Shown here piece after piece: positions 486 through 31,171 of a stretch of DNA of 64,000 nucleotides. The position numbers were made by a program, and so were the translations under genes. The first letter of the stretch is position 1; every line of letters begins with the position of its first letter. Source of the DNA: Enteractinococcus coprophilus (GTDB lineage Bacteria; Actinomycetota; Actinomycetes; Actinomycetales; Micrococcaceae); contig NZ_VFOU01000001.1 of NCBI RefSeq assembly GCF_006716305.1, positions 248,001-312,000 of the forward strand, written 5' to 3'. The notes beneath the pieces are model-generated. The model was not told the origin of the DNA, did not search any database, and was given only the letters and a program-made list of their open reading frames with translations.

Positions 486-2255
486 TCAGCGGCTTTCAGG
501 CTCATGATCTGTTGTGGTGCGGCCTGGTTGAGCTTCTGGACGGTTTCCGGAAGATTGTACTGGCTTTGTCACCCGTCCCCGGGGAGTCTTAATGTCTTTT
601 CGGATCGCGCGATGCTCAGCAGCTGGTGCTTGGTGGGTCGACGTGCGATGTGGGGTTTTGGAAGTAGTTGTTGGGACGCCGAAGGAGTCAGAGTCTGCGA
701 TCTTCCAATCTTCGGCCCAGTCAATAGGTGGGTCTTCAAGGAGTTGGTGAGACTTCAGACCGGGAAACAACTCTGCATAACTACGTGTTGATAGCTCATC
801 GATTCGGCGGTGCAGCATCTGCGGAGTGAGCTGGTCAGGATGTGATACGCCCATTGACGCCATGAATTGCCCCGCTTCGGCTACTGTGAGCTTGTGATAA
901 TTATGAACACGGTTTCCTTTATCTTCTACATCGATAGCTCGCATGAGTCGCGGGTTTTGAGTGGTAACTCCTACCGGGCAGCGGTTAGTGTGACAGATTT
1001 GGGCTTGGATGCATCCGGTAGCCATCATCATCGCTCGAGCGCTCATAACAAAATCAGCTCCTTGGATCAGCCGCTTGACTATGTCATTACCGGAAGCCAC
1101 CTTGCCGGCAGCGCCCAGACGGATACGGCTTCTGAGACCGGTGCCTACGAGCGCGTTATGAACGATTCTGAGTCCTTCGGTCAGGGGCAGACCGATATGG
1201 TCTTGGTACTCTAATGGGGCTGCTCCGGTTCCGCCTTCGGCGCCATCAATGATGATGTAGTCGGGACTGATACCGGTTTCTAACATCGCTTTGCACATTG
1301 CTAGTACATCAACACGGGAGCCGACACACAGTTTGTAGCCGATAGGTTTACCGTGGGCTAGTTGACGAAGTCTGGCGACAAATTGCATCAGCTCGCGAGG
1401 GGTGCGGAATGCTGAATGTGACGCAGGTGAGATACAGTCTTGGTCTTCCGGTACTCCCCGTGCTTCAGCAATCTCGGGAGTAATCTTCTCTACTGGAAGG
1501 ACCCCACCCAGGCCTGGTTTGGCACCTTGGCTAAGTTTAAGGGTAATCGCTTTGACTTGTTCAGTAGCTGCTTTGGTCTCAAAGACGTCTGGGGCAAAAT
1601 TTCCGCGCTCATCTCGACAGCCGAAGTAGCCTGATCCGACTTCCCAGATCACATCTGCGCCGTAGGCGAGATGGTACTTGGTCAGGCCACCTTCTCCTGT
1701 TTCTTGAGCGAATCCCCCCAGAGCTGCACCTTTGTTCATTGCTAATACCGCATTTTTTGATAACGCACCGAAGCTCATCGAGGAAATATTCATCAATGAC
1801 ATGTCATAGGGTTGTTGGCAGTCCGGGCCGCCGATCCGTACTCGATGTGGGTCTTCTGGAGGAGGCAGCGGCATACTGGAGTGCAACAGGAACTCATGGC
1901 CTTGAGCACTGACATCGAGTTCGGTCCCAAACGATGTATGACTATCCATGCCTTTTGCTCGAGCGTAAATCAGTCCTCGAATGTCACGGTCAAAGGGGCG
2001 ACCATCGGTATTGCGCTCAATAAAATACTGCTGAATTTCTGGGCGGATTGCTTCGAGTAAGTACCGCATGCGTCCGAGCACCGGATAGTTTCGTAAGATC
2101 GAATGTTTGGTTTGAAATAGGTCAAAGAGCGCCATGGCCACGAGGACTACTATCAGAGCGGCAAGGACCAGCCACCCGATCAGCCCAAATGATGCAGCAA
2201 TGATCGCTGCTATAGCCAACAGGATGAATACCGTCAAAAAGAAGAACCGCATCAT
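486..2255 (-). CDS. Membrane-anchored FMN-binding glutamate synthase-like protein
   Basis: A 589-residue protein whose core (about residues 90-510) is the FMN-binding synthase domain of the large glutamate synthase subunit (GltB/GltS family). Diagnostic stretches are SSMSFGALSKNAVLAMNKGA, KPGLGGVLPVEKI, DGAEGGTGAAP and GAADFVMSARAMM-like text near the end. The iron-sulfur motif CxxxxxCHTNRCPVGV is intact, so a [3Fe-4S] cluster is expected. The first 45 residues form two hydrophobic helices, as in YerD-like stand-alone homologues, so it is probably attached to the membrane. It has no amidotransferase domain. The last 75 or so residues are a polar Thr/Pro/Arg-rich tail not needed by the fold. 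It lies downstream of the second synthetase-like gene, about 550 bases away with a hairpin between, so probably in a separate unit. The start is one of two adjacent ATGs. Family is clear; substrate is unknown. Confidence 0.85.
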   Translation of the reverse strand: MMRFFFLTVFILLAIAAIIAASFGLIGWLVLAALIVVLVAMALFDLFQTKHSILRNYPVLGRMRYLLEAIRPEIQQYFIERNTDGRPFDRDIRGLIYARAKGMDSHTSFGTELDVSAQGHEFLLHSSMPLPPPEDPHRVRIGGPDCQQPYDMSLMNISSMSFGALSKNAVLAMNKGAALGGFAQETGEGGLTKYHLAYGADVIWEVGSGYFGCRDERGNFAPDVFETKAATEQVKAITLKLSQGAKPGLGGVLPVEKITPEIAEARGVPEDQDCISPASHSAFRTPRELMQFVARLRQLAHGKPIGYKLCVGSRVDVLAMCKAMLETGISPDYIIIDGAEGGTGAAPLEYQDHIGLPLTEGLRIVHNALVGTGLRSRIRLGAAGKVASGNDIVKRLIQGADFVMSARAMMMATGCIQAQICHTNRCPVGVTTQNPRLMRAIDVEDKGNRVHNYHKLTVAEAGQFMASMGVSHPDQLTPQMLHRRIDELSTRSYAELFPGLKSHQLLEDPPIDWAEDWKIADSDSFGVPTTTSKTPHRTSTHQAPAAEHRAIRKDIKTPRGRVTKPVQSSGNRPEAQPGRTTTDHEPESR

Positions 2256-2806: not shown

Positions 2807-4174
2807 TTAGACCATTGGCATAGGTCCCATGAGGTAATTATCGATCTCCCACTGGGTAACATGCGAATGGTACATCGCAAATTCTTTGCGTTTTTCTTCG
2901 GCAAAGAAGTCTACGAAGTCACCGTGCGGACCGCAACCCATGGCTTTGCGCATGACGTCACTTTCTTGCAGCGCATTGGCGGCTTCCCACAGCGTAGCCG
3001 GTAATGGCTGGAAATCCGCCAGCTCTTTCCGGCTCATGGTGTAGGTGTTGCGTTCTTCCAGGCACTGACCGGGATCAAGTTCACGTTCGATACCGTCAAG
3101 ACCTGCTGCAAGGATCGCCGCGGTAGCAAGGTGGGGACTGGCGCCGCCGTCAACACCGCGGTGTTCGACCCGACCGCCGGCTGGGATACGCAGCATGGTC
3201 GTGCGGTTGTTGCCACCGTACATCACGTGCGTGGGAGTCCAGGTTGAGCCTGACGTTGGGTGTGGCACGCCAATGCGCTTGTAAGCGTTGACGTTCGACC
3301 CAATCAAGGCCTGCATGCCCCAAGCATTTTCGATGATCCCGCCGATAAAGTGGTAGGCCATCTTGGACAGCCCGTAGCGGTCGTTATCATCCTGGAACAG
3401 GTTGTTACCGTTTTCGTCCCACATGCTGAAGTGGGTGTTCAGCCCGTTTCCGGTGTTGCCGGTAAACGGCTTGCCCATGAACGTTGGGACGATGCCGTCG
3501 CCGTCCTGATATGCCACGGCGTGTGCCATGTAGTGGAACAAGATCAGACGGTCCGAGGTGGTCATCGCGTCTGAGTAGTCGATGTTCATCTCGTACTGGC
3601 CGTTGCCGTCTTCGGAGTCGATAGCGGGGTTGCCCCAGCCCATTTCGTTGACGTAGCGGGACATTTTACTCAGGTAGGGCCAGGATCGTTCGATCCCGTA
3701 GGCGTGGTAGCACGGCTTGATTGAGGTATCCAGGTGGTCAGCGATCTTGATGCTGCCGTCGTCGTTCTGACGAATCAGGAAGAACTCTGGTTCCATGCCG
3801 GTCTTGAAGGTCCAGCCTTTTTCTTCTTGGATGGTGTCCATGAGTCGCTTCAGGATATTTTGCGGCGCATACGGCCACGGTTGTCCTTTGACATGCGGGT
3901 AACTCATAAGCACCGCCATGTTGGGACGCCATGGCAGACGTGTGTAGGTGGATGGGTCGGGCATGTAGGCGATGTCGCCATCTGATGGTTCCTGCCAGAG
4001 GCCTCCTGCTGCGAAGCCAGCAAATGCTGCGCCCTCATCGAGCAGGTCGTCGAGGTATTGTGCAGGTGCTACTGAGGCGTTGGGTTTACCGTTGACTTCG
4101 GTACCCATTGCCATGAAGAATTCGATGCCGTCTTTTTCGGCTTGTTCTTTGAGTTTTTCCCGTGAGTCGATCAT
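2807..4174 (-). CDS. Type III glutamine synthetase-like protein (GlnT/GmaS family)
   Basis: A 455-residue ATP-dependent gamma-glutamyl ligase of the glutamine synthetase superfamily. The beta-Grasp region covers roughly the first 100 residues. The catalytic half shows metal-binding motifs EPEFFL (about residue 128) and DSEDGNGQYEMN (about 187), then GNTGNGLNTHFSMWD (histidine in the ammonia/ATP site) and the ATP loop YGGNNRTTMLRIP. Family members make either glutamine from ammonia or gamma-glutamylmethylamide from methylamine. Sequence alone does not settle which, but the glxBCD-type genes just upstream favour the amine route. It has its own leader of about 225 bases after a hairpin that closes the upstream operon. 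The ATG is preceded by AGAGGA. It is a distant paralogue of the synthetase at 8557-9951, with different acceptor-site residues. Confidence 0.85.
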   Translation of the reverse strand: MIDSREKLKEQAEKDGIEFFMAMGTEVNGKPNASVAPAQYLDDLLDEGAAFAGFAAGGLWQEPSDGDIAYMPDPSTYTRLPWRPNMAVLMSYPHVKGQPWPYAPQNILKRLMDTIQEEKGWTFKTGMEPEFFLIRQNDDGSIKIADHLDTSIKPCYHAYGIERSWPYLSKMSRYVNEMGWGNPAIDSEDGNGQYEMNIDYSDAMTTSDRLILFHYMAHAVAYQDGDGIVPTFMGKPFTGNTGNGLNTHFSMWDENGNNLFQDDNDRYGLSKMAYHFIGGIIENAWGMQALIGSNVNAYKRIGVPHPTSGSTWTPTHVMYGGNNRTTMLRIPAGGRVEHRGVDGGASPHLATAAILAAGLDGIERELDPGQCLEERNTYTMSRKELADFQPLPATLWEAANALQESDVMRKAMGCGPHGDFVDFFAEEKRKEFAMYHSHVTQWEIDNYLMGPMPMV

Positions 4175-4335
4175 TTTGTTTTCCTCTCTGCTGCTTTCTC
4201 AAGCAGGTGTGGCCATGATCCTTTGTAAACAGAACATAGATACGGTGGGGCTTGTATTGTGTGCGACTACTGACTGAGACTTGGCGAACAATCCCCTCCA
4301 GTTTTGGGAAGGACGAAACGGTGATAGATACGACA

Positions 4336-4364
4336 CTGCCGCCCGGGAAACTTCCGGGCGGCAG
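4336..4364 (-). terminator. Terminator-like hairpin after glxD
   Basis: Perfect 11-bp arms CTGCCGCCCGG (4336-4346) and CCGGGCGGCAG (4354-4364) enclose a 7-base loop, 36 bases past the glxD stop. The flanking T tract on the minus strand is weak. It separates the five-gene operon from the second synthetase-like gene, so it may act as a terminator or attenuator. Confidence 0.65.
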
Positions 4365-4399
4365 GCGTTGTCATGGCAAAGACGGACCGGACCGGAACA

Positions 4400-5752
4400 C
4401 TACAGGCCGTTGCTACTTGGACCCCAGCCGTTTGAACTGCGACCAGGAACCCAGTCGGTTCCTGCCAGTGGCAGACCGGTCATCGCGGCCGACTCAATGG
4501 TCAGCGCGACAAGGTCTTCTGGTTCGAGGTGGGTCACATGAGATTTACCGCAGGCACGCGCAATGGTCTGGGCTTCCAGAGTCAAGACCTGCAGGTAGTT
4601 CTTCAGGCGTTTACCGGCTTCAACCGGATCCAGTCGAGCCGCTAGTTTTGGATCCTGCGTGGTGATACCAGCCGGATCGCGACCTTCATGGAAGTCGTCA
4701 TAGTAGCCGGCGGCCGAGCCGATCTTTTCGTATTCTTCCGCCCAGCGTGGGTCATTATCACCCAGCGCGATCAAAGCTGCAGTTCCAATAGCTACCGCGT
4801 CGGCTCCCAGTGCCAAGGCTTTGGCAACGTCTGCCCCGGTGCGGATACCACCAGAGATGATGAGTTTGACCTTGCGGTGAACACCCATTTCCTTGAGTGC
4901 TTTCACCGCCGGACCAATGGCCGCCAGGGTTGGGATGCCCACGTGTTCAATGAACACTTCCTGGGTTGCCGCAGTACCGCCCTGCATCCCATCGACCACC
5001 ACGACATCGGCTCCGGCGGCAACCGCGAGTTTGGTGTCGTAGTACGGGCGCGAGGCTGCGACCTTCACATGGATGGGTACGTTCCAGTCGGTGATTTCAC
5101 GGAGTTCTTCGATCTTCAGGGTCAGGTCATCCGGGCCAGTCCAGTCTGGGTGGCGGCAGGCGGAGCGCTGGTCGATGCCTTCGGGCAGCGTGCGCATCTC
5201 TGCAACACGTGACGAGATCTTCTGTCCCAGCAGCATGCCGGACCCGCCGGGTTTTGCACCCTGAGAAACCACCACTTCAATGGCATCAGCTCTGCGCAGG
5301 TGGTCAGGGTTCATACCGTAGCGGGATGGCAGCAGCTGGTAGACCAGTTTGGATGAGTGTTCGCGTTCTTCCTCGGTCATCCCGCCGTCGCCGGTGGTCG
5401 TGGAAGTACCCATTGCAGACGCCCCACGCCCCAGGGCTTCTTTCGCTTGTGCTGACAGTGCACCGAAACTCATGCCCGCAATCGTGATCGGGATATCGAG
5501 GGTCATGGGGTTCTTGGCATTCATCTCGCCCATGGTGACGTCTGTGTCACACCGTTCTCGGTACCCTTCCATTGGATAACGCGAAATCGCAGACCCCAGA
5601 AACAACAGATCATCAAAGTGTGGGACTGCACGTTTGGCGCCCCACCCGCGGATGTCATAGACACCGGTTTTGGCGGCGTGCTGGATCGCAGCGATGGATG
5701 CTCTATCAAAAATTGCGGACTCGCGGAGCCCACGATCTTCAGGACTTCTCAA
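4400..5752 (-). CDS. glxD: FMN-binding glutamate synthase-like subunit (GlxD/MgsC type)
   Basis: About 450 residues carrying the FMN-binding synthase domain of glutamate synthase as a separate subunit. Typical stretches are AGMSFGALSAQAKEALGRGA, QGAKPGGSGMLLGQKI, VVVDGMQGGTAA and the phosphate loop GADAVAIGTAALIALG. With GlxB and GlxC it should rebuild a split GltB that moves an amide or amine onto 2-oxoglutarate, or makes N-methylglutamate in the MgsABC version. Where GltB has cysteine ligands for a [3Fe-4S] cluster, this protein reads GYYDDFHEGRDPAGITTQDP, so those cysteines are missing. I chose TTG at 5752 because the preceding GGAGAG overlaps the glxC stop; the frame stays open to 5947 but that part belongs to the glxC region. 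It is the last gene of the operon. Confidence 0.87.
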   Translation of the reverse strand: MRSPEDRGLRESAIFDRASIAAIQHAAKTGVYDIRGWGAKRAVPHFDDLLFLGSAISRYPMEGYRERCDTDVTMGEMNAKNPMTLDIPITIAGMSFGALSAQAKEALGRGASAMGTSTTTGDGGMTEEEREHSSKLVYQLLPSRYGMNPDHLRRADAIEVVVSQGAKPGGSGMLLGQKISSRVAEMRTLPEGIDQRSACRHPDWTGPDDLTLKIEELREITDWNVPIHVKVAASRPYYDTKLAVAAGADVVVVDGMQGGTAATQEVFIEHVGIPTLAAIGPAVKALKEMGVHRKVKLIISGGIRTGADVAKALALGADAVAIGTAALIALGDNDPRWAEEYEKIGSAAGYYDDFHEGRDPAGITTQDPKLAARLDPVEAGKRLKNYLQVLTLEAQTIARACGKSHVTHLEPEDLVALTIESAAMTGLPLAGTDWVPGRSSNGWGPSSNGL

Positions 5753-5753
5753 T

Positions 5754-6452
5754 TTACTCTCCAGAGTTGAAGTGGTACAGGGTACGTGCCGAGCCGTAAC
5801 GGGTGAAAGAGTCAACATAGGCGTCGTCGTTGGCTTCTTGATCCATGCCGGCATCTTTGAGTAGTTGCACCAGTTCTTCGCGGTGCTCTTCGCGCATTTC
5901 TTTAGCGATACAGTCAGCACCCAGAGATGCGACCTTGCCCCGAACATACAGACGGGCTTCGAAAATGGAGTCGCCTAAGGCTTCGCCAGCATCTCCACAT
6001 ACAACGATGCGTCCGGCCTGGGCCATGAACGCACTCATGGCACCGATATTGCCTTTGACCACGATGTCGCCACCTTTGAGCGAAATGCCGCAACGGGTGG
6101 AGGCGTTACCATCGACGACAAGCAGGCCACCGTGTGCGGTGGCAGCCGCCGACTGCGAGGCGTGGCCCTTGACATGGACAACGCCAGACATCATGTTTTC
6201 GGCGACACCGGGGCCAGCCATGCCATTGACGGTTACCTTGCCGGTTTTGTGCATACCGGCACAGAAGTACCCGACGTCGCCGTCAATTTCGACGTCGATT
6301 TCATCATTGATTCCTGCGGCAACCGAGTGGGCACCGCGGGGATTTAACACCCGGTAATGCGTTGCAGTCGGTGCGTGGAGTTCGTGGTTGAGTTCCCGAA
6401 CGGTCTGTTCTGCCAGATCAAAATCTACGGTGGTTTCAGTTAGCGTTTCCAT
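5754..6452 (-). CDS. glxC: Glutamate synthase GXGXG-domain subunit (GlxC/MgsB type)
   Basis: A 232-residue protein equal to the C-terminal GXGXG beta-helix domain of glutamate synthase. Repeated turns such as GYFCAGMHKTGKVTVNGMAG, GGLLVVDGNAS, GGDIVVKGNIG and AGRIVVCGDAG are visible through residues 55-185. In full-length GltB this domain is structural and organises the ammonia channel between the amidotransferase and FMN domains; here it should bridge GlxB and GlxD. It overlaps glxB by 13 bases and is followed by glxD after one base, which indicates translational coupling and equal dosage. The ATG start gives the usual length for the family. Confidence 0.88.
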   Translation of the reverse strand: METLTETTVDFDLAEQTVRELNHELHAPTATHYRVLNPRGAHSVAAGINDEIDVEIDGDVGYFCAGMHKTGKVTVNGMAGPGVAENMMSGVVHVKGHASQSAAATAHGGLLVVDGNASTRCGISLKGGDIVVKGNIGAMSAFMAQAGRIVVCGDAGEALGDSIFEARLYVRGKVASLGADCIAKEMREEHREELVQLLKDAGMDQEANDDAYVDSFTRYGSARTLYHFNSGE

Positions 6453-7333
6453 GTATACACCTTCCCTGGTCCTGGTTCGAAAATCTCGGCATCTTCCATG
6501 CCCGGCAGGTGAGCAATCGCCTGGAATTCTGAGGCCATGGCCACCCAGTCGGGGTGTTCGGCGATAATTGCAGGTTTGCAGGCGTATTGGTCACGCACCA
6601 CCGCAAAACTATCTTCGGTGGTCACCAGCAGCGTATAGAAGCCATCGAATTCTTCACTAAGCGCCTCGACTGCAGTTTGGAGGTCTTCGCCGAGCTGCTG
6701 CATGCGATAGGAAATGTAGCGTGAGGCTACTTCCGTATCGTTTTCGGAGTCGAAGGTGAGCCCTTTCTCTTCTAGGTCACGACGAATCGTGGCATGGTTA
6801 GCGAAAGAACCGTTATGGACAACGGACAGCCCGTTGACCGAGTACGGGTGGGCACCGGCAGCGCTCACGGCCGATTCGGTCGCCAGACGAGTATGCAGCA
6901 CTCCTTGCCAACCTGTTACGTCTGATAGACGGTAGGTTTCACGCAGGTCCATTGGGTTTCCAACACCCTTATAAATGACACTGTCGTCACCTGCACCGAT
7001 GACGCTCGCTTCGGGAACGATTTCCCGAACCAGTGCCACCAGCTGATCGCTTGGCATTTTGGCTCGGATGAACGTGGTGTCGGACATGTTTTCGACGCTG
7101 ACATCGGCGTCGTGCGATAGTCTCTCAGCTACACGCTGTCGGGTATCACCGGGCGCGTCCAAGAGCGATACTGAGGAATATTCCTCAGGTAAAAGTTCTC
7201 GGTCGCCGTAGATGGCGACGCCAGCAGAGTCTGGTCCGCGCACAACGATTCCGTCGACCATCTCATGCATGAGAGAACCTAGCTGCGGGATAAGCTTTTC
7301 GTCACGCAGTTGGATTCCAGCGATTCCACACAT
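6440..7333 (-). CDS. glxB: Class II glutamine amidotransferase subunit (GlxB/MgsA type)
   Basis: A 297-residue Ntn-type amidotransferase. The sequence opens MCGIAGIQL, so Cys2 becomes the N-terminal nucleophile. Other class II landmarks are VVRGPDSAGVAIYG, the glutamine-loop region around HTRLATESAVSAAGAHPYSV, and HNGSFANHATIRRDL. It lacks the synthetase domains of GlmS, PurF or AsnB and matches the free-standing form encoded next to glxC and glxD in rhizobia and methylotrophs. The expected role is release of ammonia, or of methylamine from gamma-glutamylmethylamide, for use by GlxD. An excellent AGGAGG lies 7 bases before the ATG. It is 62 bases downstream of the Rh-type channel gene and overlaps glxC. 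Confidence 0.9.
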   Translation of the reverse strand: MCGIAGIQLRDEKLIPQLGSLMHEMVDGIVVRGPDSAGVAIYGDRELLPEEYSSVSLLDAPGDTRQRVAERLSHDADVSVENMSDTTFIRAKMPSDQLVALVREIVPEASVIGAGDDSVIYKGVGNPMDLRETYRLSDVTGWQGVLHTRLATESAVSAAGAHPYSVNGLSVVHNGSFANHATIRRDLEEKGLTFDSENDTEVASRYISYRMQQLGEDLQTAVEALSEEFDGFYTLLVTTEDSFAVVRDQYACKPAIIAEHPDWVAMASEFQAIAHLPGMEDAEIFEPGPGKVYTWKR

Positions 7334-7395
7334 GGATAGACCTCCTATATTTCGTGTCTTTGTGTTGTTACGTAGTGTTTTGGTTAGGCCGCTAG

Positions 7396-8511
7396 CTAGG
7401 CGGGATCAGTTGCTCGCATTTCTACGGCTGGGAAGGCTTCGGCGTCGTCGAGCATCTTGGTTGGTTTCGGCATGACCTTGAGAATGAGGCCTACGATGAA
7501 ACCGAGCACAAGGCCAATAACCAGGGTGCCCACCACAGCAATGGCTTGGGCGCCACCGGCAAGGCCTAGCACGATCGGGGCAAGTCCCCCGATGATGCCC
7601 GGTACGCCGTGCAGGTTGTGTACTCCCATGGTGTCCCAGACGCCGGTTTTCTTGCGCAACCATCCGTCAAGGAAGAGGAACGATAGTGTGGATATCCCAC
7701 CGCCGACGAGTCCGATAATCCAGGATTGCAACGGGGTCGCGAGGTCAACGCTGGCCCCGATGGCCACCCCACCGGCGAGGATGGCATAGGTGAATACGAG
7801 TGGATCAATAGTACGTTTCAGTGCCCAAAGTATCACGTAGGTCACTAAGACTGAAGCCACCATCGCCAGGTAGGTGTTCGCCATGCCAGAAATGACATCT
7901 TCTGGTGGCAGCAGCGCGGTCACAAATGATGGCCACAGGACCATCAGTAACATCGAGGCCAACCACACAAACGAAACGGAGTGCACACTGGTATTAGCTG
8001 GTTCATCGTTGACCGCCTTGTTGCGCAGTCCCAGGATGACGCCCCAGCCCCAGTAGGCTGCGAACATGTGCACCAGGATCGAACCGCCGGCATCTAAGAC
8101 ACCATCCAGTGCGGTAAACAGGAACCATTCGATGAACATGTACGAAGGCACAAACAGCACGCCAACGACGAGGAAGGCGATGGTCGAGATGTGGCCTAAG
8201 AAGACGCCGATAGCAATCACTAACGTAATCGCCGCAAAGACCGCGCCGATGAGGAGCTCGATATTTATTTCGGCGTCAAAGAAGGTCGTGTACGCCAGGA
8301 TGTAGAGGGGAAAGACCGTGGCAAACACTAACAGTGTTGCTAGAGCGACCCCCCATTCGTAGCGGCGGATGAACATCATCAAGAAAGCCACGAGCATCAA
8401 CATGAAGAACACATCTTGAGCTCGGTGGTACTGGAACAGTTCAGCAACCTGATCGTTCATCGTCGTTGCCGCGGAGTGTAAGTGAGTGAGAGTGTCTGAG
8501 GCGAAGTGCAT
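7396..8511 (-). CDS. Rh-type ammonium/methylammonium channel
   Basis: A 371-residue protein with about eleven hydrophobic segments of the Amt/Mep/Rh superfamily. It is closer to Rh proteins than to classical AmtB. The motifs around the twin pore histidines read DAGGSILVHMFAAYWGWGV and DTMGVHNLHGVPGIIGG, which match the Rh signatures rather than the AmtB forms. The likely role is passage of NH3 or methylamine (possibly CO2) across the membrane to the synthetase encoded just upstream (45 bases away). The C-terminal tail is short and lacks the usual AmtB regulatory tail, so GlnK gating is doubtful. An internal ATG at 8460 is an alternative start. Confidence 0.85.
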   Translation of the reverse strand: MHFASDTLTHLHSAATTMNDQVAELFQYHRAQDVFFMLMLVAFLMMFIRRYEWGVALATLLVFATVFPLYILAYTTFFDAEINIELLIGAVFAAITLVIAIGVFLGHISTIAFLVVGVLFVPSYMFIEWFLFTALDGVLDAGGSILVHMFAAYWGWGVILGLRNKAVNDEPANTSVHSVSFVWLASMLLMVLWPSFVTALLPPEDVISGMANTYLAMVASVLVTYVILWALKRTIDPLVFTYAILAGGVAIGASVDLATPLQSWIIGLVGGGISTLSFLFLDGWLRKKTGVWDTMGVHNLHGVPGIIGGLAPIVLGLAGGAQAIAVVGTLVIGLVLGFIVGLILKVMPKPTKMLDDAEAFPAVEMRATDPA

Positions 8512-8556
8512 GAGGTTACTTCCCTTGGGCTAGACCGATTGGAAAGACTGCCTGGC

Positions 8557-9951
8557 TTATGGGAAGCGCAGGTAAATATCGATTTCATGGGCAGTGACTT
8601 CGTCAGTCACGTTATGATATTCGGCACGCTTAATGCGGGCGTAGTGATCTACGAAAGCCTCTGTATTGTCCGATGGGCGACCGTATTCGTCGTCGATAGG
8701 CACCTGTCCGAAAGCCTCGCGTAGAACATCGTCTTTGACAAGGTAGTGCACTGATTCCATCAGCGAATGTGGCAGGGTGCGGATGCCGCGGCGTTCAATC
8801 TCGCGGGGTGGCGTCAGGTACAGATCCAGGTCGTTCGGTTCGCCCGGATCGAGTTTGCGATTCACCCCGTCTAAGCCGGAGGCAAGGGCCGCAGTGAATC
8901 CGAGGTAGGTGCTACCAGAGAAGTCCGGAGTGCGGTCTTCGATGGCTCCAGACCGAGCGATACGCATCATCTGTGTTCGGTTGTTACCACCGTAGGTCAT
9001 CGCTACGGGAACCCAGGTGCGGACAGTTTCTGTACCGGCTTTCAGGCGTTTATACGAGTTGACCGTGGGTGCGACCATGGCCATGTAACCGCGCGCATGG
9101 TCAAGGATGCCGGCAACGAATTGGTACCCTAGCTCGGACAGATCCAGACCACGTGCATCATTCTCATCCAAGAATAGGTTCTCATCGGTGTCTTTATCCC
9201 ACAGGCTCATCGTGTAGTGCATGCCGTTACCGGTGTTATCGGTAAATGGCTTAGGCATAAAGGTCGCAATCATGCCGTATTCTTCAGCCAAGGAATCAAC
9301 CATGTAGCGGAAGAACACCGAGCGGTCAGCTGTTTCGAGTGCGTCTGAGAAGGTCACGTTGATTTCGAACTGCCCGTTGCCATCTTCGTGGTCGACGGCG
9401 TAGTTTTCCCAGCCAAGTTCCGTCACGTACTCTGACAGTCGAGTCATCAGGTCGTATTGCCGGGTCAGGGCTTTGACGTCGTAGCAGGGACGGCCCCAGT
9501 TGTCGTATTTATCGGCGACTTTAAGTTTGCCGTCGTCGTCAAAATCGACCAGCATGAACTCGGCTTCAAAACCGAGTTTGAAGACGTAGCCCTGCTCTTC
9601 GGCTTTTTTCATTTGGTTCTGCAAAATGGTTCGTGGGCAGTACGGCCAGGGTTTGCCTTCAACCGTGGCGTTACCGATGACGTGTGCCAGACCCTTCTTC
9701 CATGGCACGATGCGGAAGGTTTTTGGGTCTGGGATCACTTCGATGTCTGGACTCTGAGGGCCCTGTCCAATCTCACCAGCGGCGAAGCCTGCGAAGCCTA
9801 CCCCGTCGGAGAAAAGTGCATCGACTTGGCTTGCGGGCACCAGCTTGGCACTAGCTTTTCCGCGGATCTCCGTGAACGAGGCAAAGATAAACTCAATGTC
9901 ATGTTCTTCGATTAATCTTTTGACATCTTCTACAGACTCAGGCTGTGCCAT
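8557..9951 (-). CDS. Type III glutamine synthetase-like protein, operon head (GlnT/GmaS type)
   Basis: About 464 residues of the glutamine synthetase superfamily. Visible motifs are EAEFMLVDFDDDGKL, the metal site DHEDGNGQFEINVTFSDA, NTGNGMHYTMSLWD with the active-site His, and the ATP loop YGGNNRTQMMRIARSG. It is short like GlnT and GmaS and lacks the adenylylation tyrosine loop of GlnA-I. It heads the operon synthetase-Rh channel-glxB-glxC-glxD. That order suggests uptake of ammonia or methylamine, ligation to glutamate, and transfer by the split synthase. I chose ATG 9951 (GGAG six bases upstream) rather than TTG 9963. A 9-bp inverted repeat lies just upstream. Whether it makes glutamine or gamma-glutamylmethylamide cannot be decided from sequence. 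Confidence 0.87.
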   Translation of the reverse strand: MAQPESVEDVKRLIEEHDIEFIFASFTEIRGKASAKLVPASQVDALFSDGVGFAGFAAGEIGQGPQSPDIEVIPDPKTFRIVPWKKGLAHVIGNATVEGKPWPYCPRTILQNQMKKAEEQGYVFKLGFEAEFMLVDFDDDGKLKVADKYDNWGRPCYDVKALTRQYDLMTRLSEYVTELGWENYAVDHEDGNGQFEINVTFSDALETADRSVFFRYMVDSLAEEYGMIATFMPKPFTDNTGNGMHYTMSLWDKDTDENLFLDENDARGLDLSELGYQFVAGILDHARGYMAMVAPTVNSYKRLKAGTETVRTWVPVAMTYGGNNRTQMMRIARSGAIEDRTPDFSGSTYLGFTAALASGLDGVNRKLDPGEPNDLDLYLTPPREIERRGIRTLPHSLMESVHYLVKDDVLREAFGQVPIDDEYGRPSDNTEAFVDHYARIKRAEYHNVTDEVTAHEIDIYLRFP

Positions 9952-9990
9952 GGACCGCTCCAATCAGGTGAATTTGAACTCATGGGTCAG

Positions 9991-10012: not shown

Positions 10013-11242
10013 AGCTTTTCGGACGTAGATGTCTGAGGTTCGCTCAGTGATGCAAGGTAACTTTTCCAGTCACTTTAGGGGCTGTCAACCGCAGAACCAT
10101 GCGGCAAGTGAGCGGAGATTAGGGGTAGACAACACCTACTTATCGTGTTAGCGAATCCGAAATGATCATTCTGCCCTCGAAAACGATTGACAGAAACTGT
10201 TAACTATGTCACATCATACGAGTGAAGATATTCGCGGTCTAGCCCTAGTCGCCCGAGACGCAGAAGAGCACGCTCAGCAGGGATCTACCGGAGCTCTATG
10301 TCCTGCCATTTCCGCACCATAGTGCGCCACCCCACAGCGTGGTCTGGACCATCTCCCGCGACGCGCGGACACACATTGCGATCGAGTGCGACCCAAGGCT
10401 GGCGGCCCCATACGCCACCCCCGCACCATGGAACGCGAGAAGTGTCGATAACTCGCGACTCAGTGAACAATCGAGGGGCTTTCTTGAACATTAAAACGTC
10501 GCATACGTCAGAAAGTGCGGAGATCCCGCACTTCGAGTTCGATAATAGCGAACGAGCGACTCTACCGAGCGGCAGAAATTCATTGCAGATGCCGACGATC
10601 TGTGACCTCGCGAGGGTCTCGCCTAGTGATTCGAAGGTTTTCCGATGATTGCACAAATCTTGAGAAAGTTAGTTGCCTTTCGCAGAGGACTCTATCCCTA
10701 AGCTTGCTGGGTGAGTCAGGGGGCTAGCTCGGGCATTACTCGCACCGCCTTACGGAAATTGTTAGACAATTCTCGCGCCGCCACAGACTCCTTGCGGGCT
10801 CGCCTCAAAGTGCAATTAATTTTGGTGCACGTCTGACCGGGAAAAACACCAAGGAACACCTACGGTGTTTCCGGAAAGACCCGGGCGCTGGGATCATGGC
10901 TGCCTGTCCAATCGGCTCCGTTGGGGTTAACCCGAGCCACCTCAGTGCAAGAACGGATGGAGAACTTCGAATAGATCCGCGTGGGGTGATACTGCACAGT
11001 CTTTTCAGCGATACAGGCGCCGAGCCGTTTCTTTATTTGTGAGCCTTGGATCACAAGCTTGGAAATTACGTGACCCTGATTACAGCGATCGACCATGGCA
11101 GGAGCGTTGACGTTTTGAAAGAACCCCGGTCACGGGTCAAGCGGCTAGCAGCATCCGATCTAAGCAAATGAATAGCGACAGTGAAAGGTCGCGTTGCCGT
11201 TCATCGAAGTGAGTTTAAGCGCTTCCGGGTAGAGCACCTCTG
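10013..11242. other. Gene-poor, probably decayed intergenic DNA
   Basis: About 1.2 kb without a convincing gene on either strand. Open frames up to about 120 codons exist (for example 10285-10656 and 10860-11096 on the minus strand), but they look like no family and lack ribosome binding sites. The left 200 bases should hold the promoter of the nitrogen operon. A short palindrome CCGCA-N6-TGCGG lies near 10090-10105. Decay is suggested by the regulator remnant next to it (11243-11491). Confidence 0.4.
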
Positions 11243-11627: not shown

Positions 11628-12512
<885 letters not shown>

Positions 12513-25569: not shown

Positions 25570-26103
25570 GGAAATCCTCTGAGAGTAGGTGTGATCAGGA
25601 ATAAAGATAACCCAGAGCCGCTCTGCGGACTCACATAAGGCTGTATCGGCATCAAGGAAGCGCGGGATGGCCCGTTTTGCCGCTCGGAACTTGCGCAAGC
25701 TTCGGATGCGCAACCTTGTGAAACCTACCGAACCACCGCATAAGCTTGGCCGCTGTGGCCAGTCGCCCACTCTTTCCATTTCAGGGTCGATCGTTTCTCT
25801 TTCCGAAACGATGTACACAATCCGCCACATTCAAGCGCCCGAAATCAAGCTATTTAGTGAAGCCAGGCGGGTTTTCGGGACGTCTCTCACCGCCCTCTAA
25901 GGGCAAAAGCGGTCGGGTTCTTTCAACCTTGACTAGGAGCATTGCCGGTGGCAACCTGGTGAGCAACTGTAACGTAGCGCACAATTCACAGTAGCAATGA
26001 TGAGCATTCCTCCATCAGTAATGATCCCGAAGCACGCTCGAAACACCCGATACCGCACCGTAGACAACAACGAGCATTCTCGTATTCAAAGGACTTGATA
26101 CGC
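25570..26103. promoter_or_regulatory. Divergent intergenic region, thermonuclease / sox operon
   Basis: About 530 bases with no gene supported. It must hold the promoters of the thermonuclease gene (-) and the sox operon (+). On the sox side the heptamer GAGCATT occurs three times (25937, 26002 and 26072), the last inside the small palindrome ACGAG-CATT-CTCGT. An ATTGCC-GGT-GGCAA palindrome lies near 25941-25954. No firm -35/-10 pair was assigned. Confidence 0.35.
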
Positions 26104-27381
26104 GTGGTGAATAATATAAACCCCGGCAAGAAACGTTCACGCTATTCCGCTTTCCAGCTGTTCTCCAAAGGGCTAACCCAAGAAGATTGGCCTGAAATTT
26201 GGTCAGAACCAGATATGAAAGACAGCTATGAAGTCGTCATCATCGGTGGTGGGCTGCATGGCCTGGCGACCGCTTACTATCTCGCAAAGAACCACGGCAT
26301 TACCGACATCGCGGTGATCGACAAGAACTATATTGGCGCTGGCGGTTCAGGGCGCAACACCTCGATTCTGCGGTCAAACTATCTGACACCCGAAGGTGTG
26401 AAATTCTACGACCGTTCGCTAAAACTCTATGAACAGCTATCGTCAGAACTCAACTTCAACTTGATGTTCTCGCAGATGGGTCACATGTCGCTGGCTCACG
26501 ATGACGGTGGCATGCGCACCATGCAATGGCGCGCGCAGGTCAACCAGGTACAAGGCGTCGATTCCAAAGTTATTAGCCCCGACGAGATCAAAGAACTCGT
26601 CCCCTATATCGACATCTCCAAAAACACCCGGTATCCGGTACTCGGGGCGCTCTACCACCCGCCCGGCGGTACCATCCGCCACGATGCGGTGGTGTGGGGT
26701 TATGCCCGTGCTGCACACGAGATGGGTGTACACATCATTCAGCACACCGAAGTCACCGGCATCGACGTCGAAAACGGTCGTGTCACCCGCGTTCGGACCG
26801 ACAAAGGCAATATCGCCACCGGTACGGCCGTGAACTGTACTGCAGGTTGGGCCTCGCTCATTTCGGATATGGCCGGGGTCAAAATGCCAGTCACCACGTC
26901 CCCACTGCAGGCAGCGGTCACCGAACCGGTCAAACCGTTCCTCGGTACCGTCGTCGTCTCTGGCACACTGCACGTCTACGTCAGCCAGACCGACCGCGGT
27001 GAACTGGTCTTCGGCGCCAGCGTTGATCCATTTACCTCGTACTCGATGCGCGGCACCCTGGAATTCGTGGAAGGTCTGGCCACCAACGTGCTCAGCCTGA
27101 TGCCGTCGCTATCCAAGATGCGACTACTGCGCCAGTGGGCCGGGCTGTGTGACATGACCCCGGACTACTCACCGATCATGGGTGAAACCGAAGTCGAGGG
27201 CTTCTATGTCGACGTCGGCTGGGGCACCTACGGCTTCAAGGCCGGTCCGGTCGCTGGTGAAGCCATGGCCGAGACCATTGCCACCGGTAAGCGTCCAGAA
27301 ATCATCCAAGGCTTCGGCTTGGACCGCTTCTCATCTGGCCAACTGGTCGGTGAGAAGGGTGCTGCCGCGGTTGGCCACTAA
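26104..27381 (+). CDS. soxB: Sarcosine oxidase/N-methylglutamate dehydrogenase beta subunit
   Basis: About 425 residues of the FAD-dependent amine oxidase family. The N-terminal lead RYSAFQLFSKGL and Rossmann motif VVIIGGGLHGLATAYYLAKN (about residue 44), then GGSGRNTSILRSNYLTPEG, are characteristic of the beta subunit of heterotetrameric sarcosine oxidase. The closely related MgdA subunit of N-methylglutamate dehydrogenase looks the same. It oxidises the N-methyl group, passing the C1 unit to tetrahydrofolate in the alpha subunit. The frame opens at TTG 26095, but AAAGGA ten bases before GTG 26104 favours that start (GTG 26107 is also possible). It is first of the soxB-soxD-soxA operon. The glx/glnT genes 17 kb away make N-methylglutamate a serious alternative to sarcosine. 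Confidence 0.85.
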   Translation: MVNNINPGKKRSRYSAFQLFSKGLTQEDWPEIWSEPDMKDSYEVVIIGGGLHGLATAYYLAKNHGITDIAVIDKNYIGAGGSGRNTSILRSNYLTPEGVKFYDRSLKLYEQLSSELNFNLMFSQMGHMSLAHDDGGMRTMQWRAQVNQVQGVDSKVISPDEIKELVPYIDISKNTRYPVLGALYHPPGGTIRHDAVVWGYARAAHEMGVHIIQHTEVTGIDVENGRVTRVRTDKGNIATGTAVNCTAGWASLISDMAGVKMPVTTSPLQAAVTEPVKPFLGTVVVSGTLHVYVSQTDRGELVFGASVDPFTSYSMRGTLEFVEGLATNVLSLMPSLSKMRLLRQWAGLCDMTPDYSPIMGETEVEGFYVDVGWGTYGFKAGPVAGEAMAETIATGKRPEIIQGFGLDRFSSGQLVGEKGAAAVGH

Positions 27382-27407: not shown

Positions 27408-27662
27408 ATGATGCAAATCAACTGCCCGTGGTGCGGGCTACGCAACGCCACCGAATTCAAACAACACGGTGAAAAACCACCGCGCCCCGATGTTGCCAAC
27501 GCAACCAGAGAGCAATGGGCCGACTACCTGTATTTCCGTAATAACACCTGGGGTGTCGTCAAAGAACAGTGGTTCCACTCCTCAGGTTGCCGCCAGTTCT
27601 TCATGCTGCACCGCGACACGTTTGCCAATAAAGCCATCCGTTCCGAAGGAGACGTTCGATGA
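27408..27662 (+). CDS. soxD: Sarcosine oxidase-type delta subunit
   Basis: An 84-residue zinc-binding subunit. The four ligands known from the family are present: Cys6 and Cys9 in INCPWCG, and His57 and Cys61 in WFHSSGCRQFF. The delta subunit clamps the alpha-beta contact in heterotetrameric sarcosine oxidases. AAGGAG lies seven bases before the ATG. Its stop overlaps the soxA start by 4 bases (ATGA), so translation is coupled. The gap to soxB is 26 bases. Confidence 0.88.
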   Translation: MMQINCPWCGLRNATEFKQHGEKPPRPDVANATREQWADYLYFRNNTWGVVKEQWFHSSGCRQFFMLHRDTFANKAIRSEGDVR

Positions 27663-30600
27663 CCCCGTCTGAGCATAATCAACCGCTGCGTCTAGTAACA
27701 CAGCCCAACGAGGAAATCGATCGATCACAGCGGGTCACGTTTACCTGGAACGGCAAGACCTACACCGGCTACCAGGGCGATACGATCGTCTCGGCACTCT
27801 ATGCGGCCGGCGAGCGGGTGTTTTCACGTTCGATGAAATACCACAGCCCCCGAGGTGTGCTGACCGGGACGCTACATGATCCAGGAACGATACTGCAGGT
27901 CGACGACGAACCTAACGTTCGCGGTGCGCACCGGCTGATCGAAGAGGGTATGAATGTCACCTCGCAGAACACCTGGCCGTCGCTGAAATACGATGTGCGT
28001 GCAGTCAACCAACTCGGTGCGCGATTCCTGGGGCCGGGCTTCTATTACAAGACCTTCATGAAACCCGACTTCTTGCGCCCCGCCTATCAGCGGGTGCTGC
28101 GCGGCTTCGTCCATGGGGGCAAGGTCTCCAAGAATCGTCCCGAAGAAACCTATGAAAAGCGCTACGCCCACACCGATGTGCTGGTAGCAGGCGGCGGGCC
28201 TGCCGGCATGGAAGCCGCCCTGGCGGCCGCTGCCTCGGGAGCATCCGTCATGCTGGTCGAAGAAGACCACCAGTTGGGTGGTCACCTGCGCTGGGCGGAC
28301 GGTCAACTGGCCCGTGAACTCCGCGCCCAAGTCACCGCTAACCCCAATATCACCGTCTACACCAACACCACGGTTGCCGCCCGCTACGATGACAACTGGT
28401 TGGCCGTTGTACAACGGTCCCCCGAACCCGGCATGGGCGAACGGTTAATCAAGACTCGCGCCCGCAGCCTGGTGGTCGCAGCCGGGCTGCTGGAACGCCC
28501 CTACGTTTTTGAAGGCAACGACCTGCCCGGCGTCCTGCTCTCCACGGCCGCACGTCGTTTGATCAACCTCTACTCGGTGCGCCCCGGCGGCCGCGCCGTG
28601 GTAGTCACTGCCAATCCCGAAGGTGATGCCGCGGTCGAAGACCTGCGTCGTGCCGGCGTAGAAGTGGTTGCCGTCGTCGATGCCCGCCAGGGTGACACGG
28701 TGGTCCGAGCAACCGGCCGCGGCCGCGTGCAGTCCGTTGAACTGTCCACCGGACAAAAGATCGCAGCCGATTTGCTCGTCACGGCCGTGGGTTGGACTGC
28801 CCCAACCTCGCTGCTGAATATGTCCGGCGACAAACCGTACTACGAACCACAAGCAGCCCGCTTCCTACCCGGTGGTACCGAAGAGGGCGTCTACGCTGCC
28901 GGTGGGATTTCCGGGGATGGCACCGTGGCGCAGTTGCGCGATCATGGTGCCGCCGTCGGTGCGCGTGCCGCGGCTCACGCGTTAGCGCAGCGCAGCTTGA
29001 AGATCGCGTCTGCCCCAACGGTTTCAGGACAAACTGAGGCCCCGACCACTGAGAACCTGCCAGAGGTGCAGCCGTTACCGGTGCCGCAGCATCCTGAACT
29101 GTTCCGCTCTTCGACCCACGGGTTCGTGGACTACTCCGAGGACATCACCTCGTCTGATCTGCAGGCCGCCGTGGCGGAAGGCTACGACTCAGCCGAACTG
29201 GTCAAACGCTTCACCACCGTGACCATGGGACCGCTACAGGGCAAGATCGAACTGGTGAACTTCATCGCCGTCGTTGCAGAAGCCACCGGCAAGACCATTG
29301 CCGAAACCGGGACCACCACGTGGCGACCAATGTATGCACCGGTGACCCTGGGAGCGTTGGCCGGCCAGAAATACGACCCGATCCGCTACTCCTCGATCCA
29401 GACGTGGCACGAAGCCCACGGTGCCAAACCGATGATCGCTGGTCAGTGGATTCGTCCCGAACACTACGGGGATCCACAGGCTGAAGTCCGTCGGGTACGC
29501 GATGGGGTGGGCATCATCGATGTGTCGCCGTTGGGCAAGATCGACCTGCGCGGTCCCGATGTGCCAAAACTGCTGAACCTGCTCTACACCAATAAATGGT
29601 CCAAATTGGGCATCGGCAAGGTCCGCTACGGGGTCATGGTCTCTGAAGATGGTGTGGTCATGGACGATGGCGTCACCGCCCGACTCGATGAAGACCACTA
29701 CCTGATGACGACCACAACCGGTGGCGCCGGCCGCGTGTGGGACTGGATTGAAGAATGGCTGCAGACCTTCCACCCAGAATGGCAGGTCAACGCCACCCCG
29801 GTCTCAACCGCCTACACCAGTATCAACATCGCCGGACCCCACGCCCGGACGCTGTTGTCGCGACTGACCGATGTGGACGTGTCCGCGGAGGCCTTCAAGT
29901 ACATGGAGGTTCGCACCGGAACCGTGGCCGGGGTCGAGAACTCGATCCTGTGGCGGATCGGGTTTACCGGGGAACTCTCTTATGAAATTCACGTCCCGGC
30001 CGCCTACGGGCTGCACGTGTGGGAGACCCTGCTGGAAGTTGGCCAGGACCTGGGCGTTGGTCCATTTGGTATCGAAGCCCAGCGCATCCTGCGTCTGGAG
30101 ACCGGCCACCTGATCGTCGGCCAGGACACGGATGGCTTGACCCAGGGCTACAGTGCCGGTCTGGAATGGGCCATCAAATTAGATAAAGACGACTTCGTGG
30201 GCAAACCCGAACTGGCCTGGCAACAGCAAAACCAGACCGGAATGCGCCTGGTCGCCGTCCAACCGGTTGATACCCATGTGGTTCCGGATGAGGCAAGCCA
30301 GATCCTCTTCGGCAATGGCACCATCGCCGGACGCATCACCTCCGCACGGTTGTCCCCCACTCTGGGTCGGTCCATCTGTTTGGCCCAGGTCGAACAGTCG
30401 CTGGCCGAACCCGGCACCATGGTCACGATCCGCCAGATCGATGGCACCATGATTCAGGGCAAGGTCATGGAGGGTCTGACCGCGGTGGATAAAGAGGGTA
30501 CCCGACTGGATAATGACAGCCAGCCGGAGGCCCGCGTCGAAGTCGGCGAACCAATTGGCCGCAGCCCGGTACGCGTCGGTGACGCCAAGACCTTGCTTGC

Positions 30601-31171
30601 GGGCTGGGAAGTCTCTGCCCAACCGGCAGCTGGTCCGCTGACTATCCAGGACCAAAGTGTCATGACCAAGCTTGAGGTTCGCAGCTCGTTTACCGGTTCA
30701 ACCGCCGAGAAACTGCATGCCAGCTTCGGTCGCACCCATCGCAGTCAAGACGGCACATTGGTGATCGGTTCTGGCCCTGGCCAGTGGTACATCTTGGGCG
30801 AACCAGGCTCCCAGCAGACCATGCTCAATGCACTGCAGCACATGGCTGATAGCGCCAATGAGCTGACCACTGTGGTCGACCTGACGCACGGTCGCGCGCT
30901 GTTCCGGATCACCGGGGATGAAGCAGCCGCACTGCTCAATAAGCTGTGCTCGCTGGAACTCTCCGATGACATTGTCCCGGATGGGTCCGCACTGCGCAGC
31001 AGCGTCGCCGGGGTGGTCACCGACATCATCCGTGACGACGTCGACGGCGCGCTCAGCTACTTGGTCCACTGCGAGCGTTCCTCGGGTCAATACCTGTGGG
31101 ATACGCTGCTGGATGCCGGAGCTGAATACCGACTGGCTGAAGTCGGTTACACGATGGCCTACGCCAACTAG
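27659..31171 (+). CDS. soxA: Sarcosine oxidase-type alpha subunit fused to gamma subunit
   Basis: A 1170-residue protein. Residues 20-120 are the N-terminal SoxA domain (TFTWNGKTYTGYQGDTIVSAL, SMKYHSPRGVLTG). An NAD/FAD-type Rossmann module follows (VLVAGGGPAGMEAALAAAAS, about 175) and closes with YAAGGISGDGTVAQLRDHGA. A bridging segment follows (LVKRFTTVTMGPLQGK), then the folate-binding GcvT-like domain (about 590-950; YGVMVSEDGVVMDDGV, GFTGELSYEIHVPA, PFGIEAQRILRLETGH). Residues from about 970 correspond to the separate gamma subunit (SoxG: VVDLTHGRALFRITGDEAAALLNKLC). The usual alpha is about 960-1000 residues, so this is an alpha-gamma fusion and no separate soxG follows. It yields 5,10-methylene-THF from the oxidised methyl group. 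A strong terminator follows. Confidence 0.87.
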   Translation: MTPSEHNQPLRLVTQPNEEIDRSQRVTFTWNGKTYTGYQGDTIVSALYAAGERVFSRSMKYHSPRGVLTGTLHDPGTILQVDDEPNVRGAHRLIEEGMNVTSQNTWPSLKYDVRAVNQLGARFLGPGFYYKTFMKPDFLRPAYQRVLRGFVHGGKVSKNRPEETYEKRYAHTDVLVAGGGPAGMEAALAAAASGASVMLVEEDHQLGGHLRWADGQLARELRAQVTANPNITVYTNTTVAARYDDNWLAVVQRSPEPGMGERLIKTRARSLVVAAGLLERPYVFEGNDLPGVLLSTAARRLINLYSVRPGGRAVVVTANPEGDAAVEDLRRAGVEVVAVVDARQGDTVVRATGRGRVQSVELSTGQKIAADLLVTAVGWTAPTSLLNMSGDKPYYEPQAARFLPGGTEEGVYAAGGISGDGTVAQLRDHGAAVGARAAAHALAQRSLKIASAPTVSGQTEAPTTENLPEVQPLPVPQHPELFRSSTHGFVDYSEDITSSDLQAAVAEGYDSAELVKRFTTVTMGPLQGKIELVNFIAVVAEATGKTIAETGTTTWRPMYAPVTLGALAGQKYDPIRYSSIQTWHEAHGAKPMIAGQWIRPEHYGDPQAEVRRVRDGVGIIDVSPLGKIDLRGPDVPKLLNLLYTNKWSKLGIGKVRYGVMVSEDGVVMDDGVTARLDEDHYLMTTTTGGAGRVWDWIEEWLQTFHPEWQVNATPVSTAYTSINIAGPHARTLLSRLTDVDVSAEAFKYMEVRTGTVAGVENSILWRIGFTGELSYEIHVPAAYGLHVWETLLEVGQDLGVGPFGIEAQRILRLETGHLIVGQDTDGLTQGYSAGLEWAIKLDKDDFVGKPELAWQQQNQTGMRLVAVQPVDTHVVPDEASQILFGNGTIAGRITSARLSPTLGRSICLAQVEQSLAEPGTMVTIRQIDGTMIQGKVMEGLTAVDKEGTRLDNDSQPEARVEVGEPIGRSPVRVGDAKTLLAGWEVSAQPAAGPLTIQDQSVMTKLEVRSSFTGSTAEKLHASFGRTHRSQDGTLVIGSGPGQWYILGEPGSQQTMLNALQHMADSANELTTVVDLTHGRALFRITGDEAAALLNKLCSLELSDDIVPDGSALRSSVAGVVTDIIRDDVDGALSYLVHCERSSGQYLWDTLLDAGAEYRLAEVGYTMAYAN

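Follow-up and report, generated by a model that had tools for sequence, protein, structure and literature searches.

The 64,000-nucleotide (nt) stretch of the Enteractinococcus coprophilus genome analysed here (the window; the host genome comprises 2.88 Mb in 6 contigs) harbours two gene clusters 16 kb apart, which are best read as an N-methylglutamate-type methylamine route split over two loci (probability about 0.6). The first cluster, on the minus strand, is a five-gene operon encoding (i) a GmaS-like ligase as first gene product (GlnT-A; 8557–9951), (ii) a Rh50-like ammonia/methylamine channel of the Rh family (7396–8511; PF00909), and (iii) the three parts of a split glutamate-synthase-like enzyme, i.e., the class-II amidotransferase subunit GlxB/MgsA with N-terminal Cys2 (6440–7333; PF13522/PF13537), the GXGXG beta-helix subunit GlxC/MgsB (5754–6452; PF01493) and the flavin mononucleotide (FMN) subunit GlxD/MgsC, devoid of Fe-S cysteines (4400–5752; PF01645). 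Going from GlnT-A to GlxD, the first two intergenic gaps measure 45 and 62 nt; GlxB and GlxC overlap by 13 nt, and GlxC and GlxD are 1 nt apart. Translation of GlnT-A starts at the ATG at 9951, the mechanically predicted open reading frame (ORF) opening at a TTG at 9963. A spacer of 225 nt separates GlxD from the gene for GlnT-B (2807–4174, minus strand), a diverged GmaS paralogue. This arrangement of synthetase, Rh channel, glxB, glxC, glxD and a second synthetase-like gene had been claimed in an earlier note on this DNA; all of these genes are present on the minus strand, with the limits given there.

The second cluster, a sox-type operon on the plus strand, encodes a SoxB/MgdA-like flavin adenine dinucleotide (FAD) subunit (26095–27381), a SoxD/MgdB-like zinc-type subunit of 84 amino acids (27408–27662), the ORF of which lies between soxB and soxA and is homologous to soxD of reference clusters, and a SoxA-SoxG protein (MgdC-MgdD-like; 27659–31171) resembling tetrahydrofolate (THF)-linked N-methyl amino acid oxidases, soxA and soxG being a single gene here. 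Both ligases exceed the cut-off (469.6 bits) of TIGR03105 for type III GlnT (519.8 bits for GlnT-A, 497.2 bits for GlnT-B), a model which cannot tell GmaS from GlnT. SoxB (519.1 bits with TIGR01373; cut-off 529.45) and SoxAG (869 bits with TIGR01372, 97.7 bits with TIGR01375) score below the respective cut-offs.

Ligase GlnT-A and its diverged paralogue GlnT-B

Active-site residues described for the GmaS of Rhodovulum (RhGmaS; PMC7948447; papers are cited throughout for their available passages) were mapped on 116 rows representing 107 distinct sequences. GlnT-A retains Lys30, Glu122, Glu124, Tyr147, Asp177, Glu179, Glu186, Asn188, His235, Arg288, Arg312, Arg317, Glu325 and Arg327 (RhGmaS numbering throughout this section); the catalytic residues and all Mg ligands of RhGmaS are intact. 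Both GlnT-A and GlnT-B possess Ala48 and Trp300 at the positions where ammonia-type glutamine synthetase (GS) has the ammonium-ligand Asp50 and the catalytic flap Glu, and both share Arg312, Asp177 and Glu186. The median ratio of nonsynonymous to synonymous polymorphism (pN/pS) of GlnT-A is 0.098 (9 genomes).

Phylogenetic analysis was based on a careful tree of 50 chosen rows and a quick tree of 107 rows, neither containing an assay-proven ammonia-specific GlnT; L034 (same contig as L075) and the repeat copies L059–L065 were removed beforehand. In the careful tree, which carries a warning of long branches among the outgroups, GlnT-A is sister to a clade of actinobacterial GlnTs from Solirubrobacterales, Thermoleophilia and others (support 97/94). 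In six of the eight sister rows, the contig also carries sox-type genes (L076 with a soxD piece only). The clade with GlnT-A is supported at only 85 in the quick tree.

GlnT-B, present in 6 of 9 genomes of the genus, differs from RhGmaS by Lys30→Ser, Tyr174→Pro, His178→Ser or Ala and His235→Asn, the latter affecting a ligand of Mg and glutamate. These substitutions occur in 7 rows (6 genomes) out of 109 (107 distinct), i.e., in every GlnT-B-bearing genome. Positions 30, 178 and 235 deviate in GlnT-B rows only and are intact in all 101 other sequences, while position 174 also deviates in two further rows. The median pN/pS of 0.129 indicates purifying selection. Since GlnT-B is devoid of the residues binding Mg, glutamate and the amine in GmaS, the earlier proposal of two GmaS-type ligases finds no support. 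We regard GlnT-B as a non-standard or regulatory paralogue; it provides a clean example of a conserved yet crippled ligase copy.

Origin of the pair by one recent duplication was considered as well. The careful tree places GlnT-B on a stem of 1.13 changes per column within another actinobacterial clade (100/97) composed of both sox-linked and unlinked rows. Thus, the best tree separates the two proteins, yet the approximately unbiased (AU) test does not reject a common clade (p-AU 0.112).

Split synthase, Rh channel and sox-type oxidase

GlxB, GlxC and GlxD represent separate amidotransferase, GXGXG and FMN subunits, matching the layout of MgsABC. The MCG start of GlxB is conserved in 110 of 114 rows (including repeat copies), and three of the remaining four begin with VCG. 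GlxD contains the motif YDDF..G.DPAGITTQ, with Asp337, Tyr356, Phe359 and Asp364 as relevant residues. At the positions corresponding to GlxD residues 337, 359 and 364, canonical GltB and stand-alone GltS have Cys, which presumably coordinates the 3Fe-4S cluster in glutamate synthase. Two classes of GlxD can be distinguished. Class I has Cys at 337, 356, 364 and mostly also at 359; in class II, Cys is absent from 356, 359 and 364 and occurs at 337 in 1 of 65 rows. Of the 79 distinct sequences found outside the genus, 26 belong to class I and 53 to class II; all are from glnT-bearing loci, largely owing to the way they were fetched. Class II comprises the proteins of the window and of the whole genus as well as those of Aminobacter aminovorans (L248), Methylobacterium DM1 (L249) and Paracoccus aminovorans (L250). 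Since sox genes and glnT adjoin both classes, gain or loss of the Fe-S motif took place inside clusters linked to glnT.

An electron-input subunit (NAD(P)H-dependent GltD) is absent from among the genes of the operon, to which the search for GltD was confined. Because neither Fe-S cysteines nor such a subunit are provided, GlxBCD should be an amine exchanger, predicted to form N-methylglutamate from methylamine and to exchange amines only. Ammonia would then merely return glutamate and waste ATP in a futile cycle. The suggestion that ammonia serves as alternative substrate was therefore abandoned.

PMC6237917 describes the redox cofactor of N-methylglutamate synthase as unknown and cites a reductive proposal as well as an older one starting from glutamate plus methylamine; the two GlxD classes bear on this question. 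Literature tying N-methylglutamate to a 3Fe-4S cluster was not found, and the only iron-sulfur passage retrieved for iron-sulfur, glutamate synthase and methylamine, among the text available, concerned a Rieske protein; both searches left most subscription papers outside. For Cys-less GlxD no redox cofactor is predicted to be needed. One may speculate, at somewhat below even odds, that Cys-less N-methylglutamate synthases are electron-independent exchangers and, at the same time, that the Enteractinococcus exchanger works together with the Rh channel and with GlnT-B, the latter as a selected pseudo-synthetase unable to bind Mg and glutamate normally and probably acting as regulator or sensor. 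If true, the exchange of glutamate plus amine for N-alkylglutamate plus ammonia would be a departure from glutamate-synthase chemistry and would settle the redox-cofactor question for the Cys-less class.

Among solved structures, the channel is most similar to Rh50 of Nitrosomonas (E 4e-54), followed by human Rh proteins and, far lower, one Amt (E 3e-6). Both histidine motifs (twin pore histidines) align with those of the Nitrosomonas protein. Judged from these matches, the channel is closer to Rh than to Amt. The Rh gene was detected in 7 of 9 genomes of the genus and in none of 50 relatives; an Amt gene occurs in 18 of 80 related loci, and Rh in none outside the genus. N. europaea Rh50 was assayed with labelled methylammonium (review PMC10433425), which makes methylamine a plausible cargo by analogy. 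The present channel differs from this nearest solved relative in being encoded within a glnT-glxBCD operon.

SoxA contains a GcvT/THF-type domain suited to one-carbon transfer. Phylogenetic analysis assigns it to a clade of 22 rows, separate from canonical sarcosine oxidases (support 100), among which the two other Sox copies of this genome fall. Grouping of the sox subunits with sarcosine-specific enzymes, named in the earlier note as one half of the outcome that would refute the route, was thus not observed. Within the clade, glnT and glxBCD adjoin sox in Mycolicibacterium L099, Pseudonocardia L102, L094 and L090. The SoxB motif reads GWGTYGFK versus GWG(T/S)GGFK in the five aligned rows of the canonical clade. 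The residue preceding GFK is aromatic in the window SoxB's own clade, linked or not, as well as in a neighbouring glnT-linked clade; glnT-linked L026 and L248 also have Gly at this place. Compared to heterotetrameric sarcosine oxidase (1vrq, 2gag), the alpha and beta subunits are homologous; differences are the position outside the canonical clade, the scores below the NCBI SoxA and SoxB cut-offs and the Tyr replacing Gly before GFK.

GlnT-A together with GlxBCD is encoded in all 9 genomes of the genus, and GlnT-A in 1 of 50 other genomes of the family and order (43 %). SoxAG with at least 73 % identity was found in 8 of 9 genomes of the genus (in G001 only as a fragment of 600 residues at the edge of a contig), and the remaining genome is 71 % complete; no full-length SoxAG is present in the 50 relatives, where matches are partial (about 40 %). 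Both GlnT-A and SoxAG occur together in 8 of 9 genomes, at a distance of at most about 26 kb in the four with both on one contig (G000, G003, G004, G006). Within the Micrococcaceae, the probable N-methylglutamate route would be placed in one genus, none of the 28 others sampled in this family yielding a match for GlnT-A or Rh. Because short contigs limit linkage counts, those for the 80 related loci were repeated for the 54 loci of at least 14 kb, 26 of which contain soxA and 17 Amt.

Proposed methylamine route and rival explanations

Methylamine (or methylammonium) would enter via the Rh channel and be coupled to glutamate by GlnT-A at the expense of ATP, yielding gamma-glutamylmethylamide. 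GlxB would then free methylamine inside the GlxBCD complex, where FMN-containing GlxD may exchange the glutamate amino group for it, forming N-methylglutamate and ammonia with no need for outside electrons. Subsequent oxidation of N-methylglutamate to glutamate by SoxB-SoxD-SoxAG, encoded 16 kb away, would transfer the methyl carbon to THF, the net conversion being that of methylamine to ammonia and a one-carbon unit. Read directly from the sequences are the gene set, the catalytic residues kept in GlnT-A, the absence of Fe-S cysteines from GlxD, the clade memberships and the co-distribution within the genus; methylamine as the real amine and the exchange chemistry are what we infer. The two-locus route is supported by the mostly sox-linked sister clade of GlnT-A and by the position of the sox subunits outside canonical sarcosine oxidases.

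The N-methylglutamate clusters (gmaS, mgsABC, mgdABCD) of Aminobacter aminovorans (L248) and Ponticoccus (L024) contain the same three modules with a three-gene split synthase, a Cys-less GlxD/MgsC and the GmaS catalytic set as conserved in GlnT-A. Unlike there, the genes of the actinobacterium are distributed over two loci, the Rh channel is part of the operon, soxA and soxG are fused and an extra crippled synthetase (GlnT-B) is present. The best sox match linked to glnT-glxBCD is that of Pseudonocardia nigra L102 (glxBCD-glnT-soxB-soxD-soxAG; SoxB 74 %, SoxAG 66 %), differing by its single contiguous cluster, the absence of a Rh match and a GlxD of the Cys-containing class (64 %). Of wider interest are the GlxD class devoid of these cysteines, the presence of an Rh channel gene within the operon, and GlnT-B.

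Several observations weigh against the methylamine route. In GlnT-A, Gln175 of the amine/ATP site is replaced by Ala, as in most actinobacterial rows, and the ATP site is altered by Trp189→Val, Tyr191→Phe and His237→Thr, Thr237 being found solely in this genus with no outside row matching as Thr; mutation of pocket and ATP residues impaired RhGmaS (PMC7948447). The stem of GlnT-A is long (1.08 changes per column), and its amine may therefore have changed. The nearest relatives of GlxD (80–81 %) are located in stretches of Streptomyces, Paractinoplanes and Mycobacterium without soxA. The dimethylamine monooxygenase subunit DmmC, the only subunit sought and searched without a positive control, has no match in the genome, and no shared operator was seen upon aligning the upstream stretches of soxB and GlnT-B.

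The distribution of the oxidase is part of this balance. The first sox tree looked decisive because most loci of its favourable clade had been retrieved by way of GlnT. A second sample of 296 genomes, drawn evenly across the phylum and regardless of GlnT, removed the certainty with which clade membership could be taken as proof of N-methylglutamate as substrate. Eleven genomes besides the present one possess a SoxAG homologue of at least 59 %. Seven of these have no GlnT above the family cut-off, and in the other four it is located on another contig than SoxAG, both findings again being unfavourable to the route. Nevertheless, GlnT is enriched with close SoxAG (4/11 versus 14/284 genomes, p 0.0025) and with any SoxAG match (11/23 versus 7/272 of the 295 other actinobacteria, p 1e-9), kinship being uncorrected in both tests. 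Thus, the earlier claim of a whole route in two loci stands as regards gene sets of the GmaS, Mgs and Mgd type 16 kb apart, while N-methylglutamate is unproven as substrate of the sox-type enzyme on account of the seven genomes without a GlnT above the cut-off; its use is inferred from clade and gene context. The parts of the earlier reading concerning ammonia and two ligases should be dropped.

Among rival explanations, nitrogen scavenging appears unlikely, with ammonium imported, converted to glutamine by GlnT and processed by GlxBCD as a split glutamate synthase, and with the sox genes unrelated. The model for it is the amt1-glnT-glxBCD set of Mycobacterium smegmatis (msmeg_6259-6263), which, compared by the gene names in PMC4222082 and not by sequence, likewise comprises an Amt/Rh-superfamily channel, GlnT, an amidotransferase, a FwdC-like and a glutamate-synthase-like protein. 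It differs in that the channel is named Amt1. These genes are induced by nitrogen starvation in a GlnR-dependent manner and, according to the available passages, methylamine is not used for growth as nitrogen source (PMC4222082, PMC4617892), a further point unfavourable to the methylamine route. Scavenging would also agree with the nearest relatives of GlxD and with the 13 of 80 loci where Amt is near glnT without soxA. However, the lack of both Fe-S cysteines in GlxD and an electron-input subunit among the operon's genes makes reductive glutamate synthesis unlikely. In addition, the GlnTs with which GlnT-A groups are mostly sox-linked, GlnT-A is devoid of the ammonia-binding residues of GS, and the genome encodes two other glutamine synthetases. 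That GlnT-A and GlxBCD replace GS and glutamate synthase is less probable still, although such a role must be considered given that canonical GltB is encoded in 0 of 9 genomes of the genus versus 9 of 10 genomes of other genera of the family; in G003, G004 and G006, GlxD is the sole PF01645 protein found at E 1e-40. This role is at odds with the loss of cysteines kept by GltB and stand-alone GltS and with a glutamate-dehydrogenase-family protein in this genome, and would leave the co-distributed SoxAG unexplained.

Another primary amine, ethylamine or larger, might be the substrate, or the two loci might have unlinked functions, i.e., amine capture on the one hand and oxidation of a sarcosine-like N-methyl amino acid on the other. 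In favour of these readings are the long stems of both synthetases, the altered pocket positions, the acceptance of several amines by RhGmaS (PMC7948447) and the lack of GlnT from most of the SoxAG clade outside the genus (7 of 11). These possibilities are nevertheless regarded as improbable, considering the suitability of the GcvT/THF-type domain for one-carbon transfer, the two canonical-type Sox copies already present in the genome and the co-occurrence of GlnT-A and SoxAG within the genus.

Regulatory elements, related loci and neighbouring genes

The spacer between GlxD and GlnT-B contains a strong terminator-like hairpin without clear U run (4330–4400, minus strand; predicted fold of -32.6 kcal/mol over 71 nt), the arm of which, GGGCGGCAG, was found again in 4 of 5 other genus loci aligned. 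Due to this hairpin, GlnT-B probably represents a transcription unit of its own, apart from the five-gene operon.

Ahead of GlnT-A, a palindrome CTGAG-N5-CTCAG (10033–10047) is a possible operator; it is exact in 8 of 9 upstream stretches of the genus, with a conserved TTGACA further upstream. The window contains this single exact copy and 5 matches with one mismatch versus 2.3 expected (1 versus 0.5 in a second count). The count is near chance, and rarity alone is insufficient for significance. Shared regulation of both loci was rejected, since no second exact copy of the palindrome is present in the window.

Related loci of other genera display further gene combinations. In Rhodococcus, Prescottella, Nocardia and Gordonia (L108, L120, L145, L150), glnT-glxBCD is located near dimethylamine-monooxygenase-like genes and Amt, in the first three loci additionally with a single-subunit FAD oxidase related to SoxB. 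These clusters perhaps represent a route for dimethylamine that ends with another enzyme. Recurrent neighbours of sox in 11 loci encode a FAD oxidoreductase (7), a formate-THF ligase (3) and an MTHFR-like protein (3), with one representative each identified; a protein resembling dimethylsulfoniopropionate (DMSP) demethylase is found among the GcvT relatives at these loci. The SoxAG homologues with 39–42 % identity of G129, G150 and G140 are labelled unlinked in the tree, although the contig concerned in G129 also carries a GlnT fragment and G150 encodes a GlnT at another place. In L223 (G323:C324, 14717–19000), a distant GlnT-like gene (30 %) together with GlxB/GlxC-like and GlxD-like (52 %) genes is located beside a sox operon, G323 being one of the four genomes with both close SoxAG and GlnT above cut-off. 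L236 (G150:C80, 275–3316) contains a distant GlnT-like gene (30 %) and GlxB/GlxC-like genes. Either set may represent a further ligase-synthase pair for amines.

The gene at 486–2255 (minus strand; PF01645) encodes a stand-alone FMN protein of the glutamate-synthase-like kind, in which the cysteines of the CHTNRCPVGVTT motif are intact. It is probably a mere neighbour outside the pathway; among the 9 genomes of the genus, only the present one has a matching protein (E about 1e-89). An actinobacterial-type catechol 1,2-dioxygenase is encoded on the same strand at 11628–12497, about 1.7 kb upstream of the operon. Alanine dehydrogenase (36000–37142; TIGR00518 above cut-off), encoded about 5 kb beyond the sox-type operon, may provide an outlet for released ammonia.

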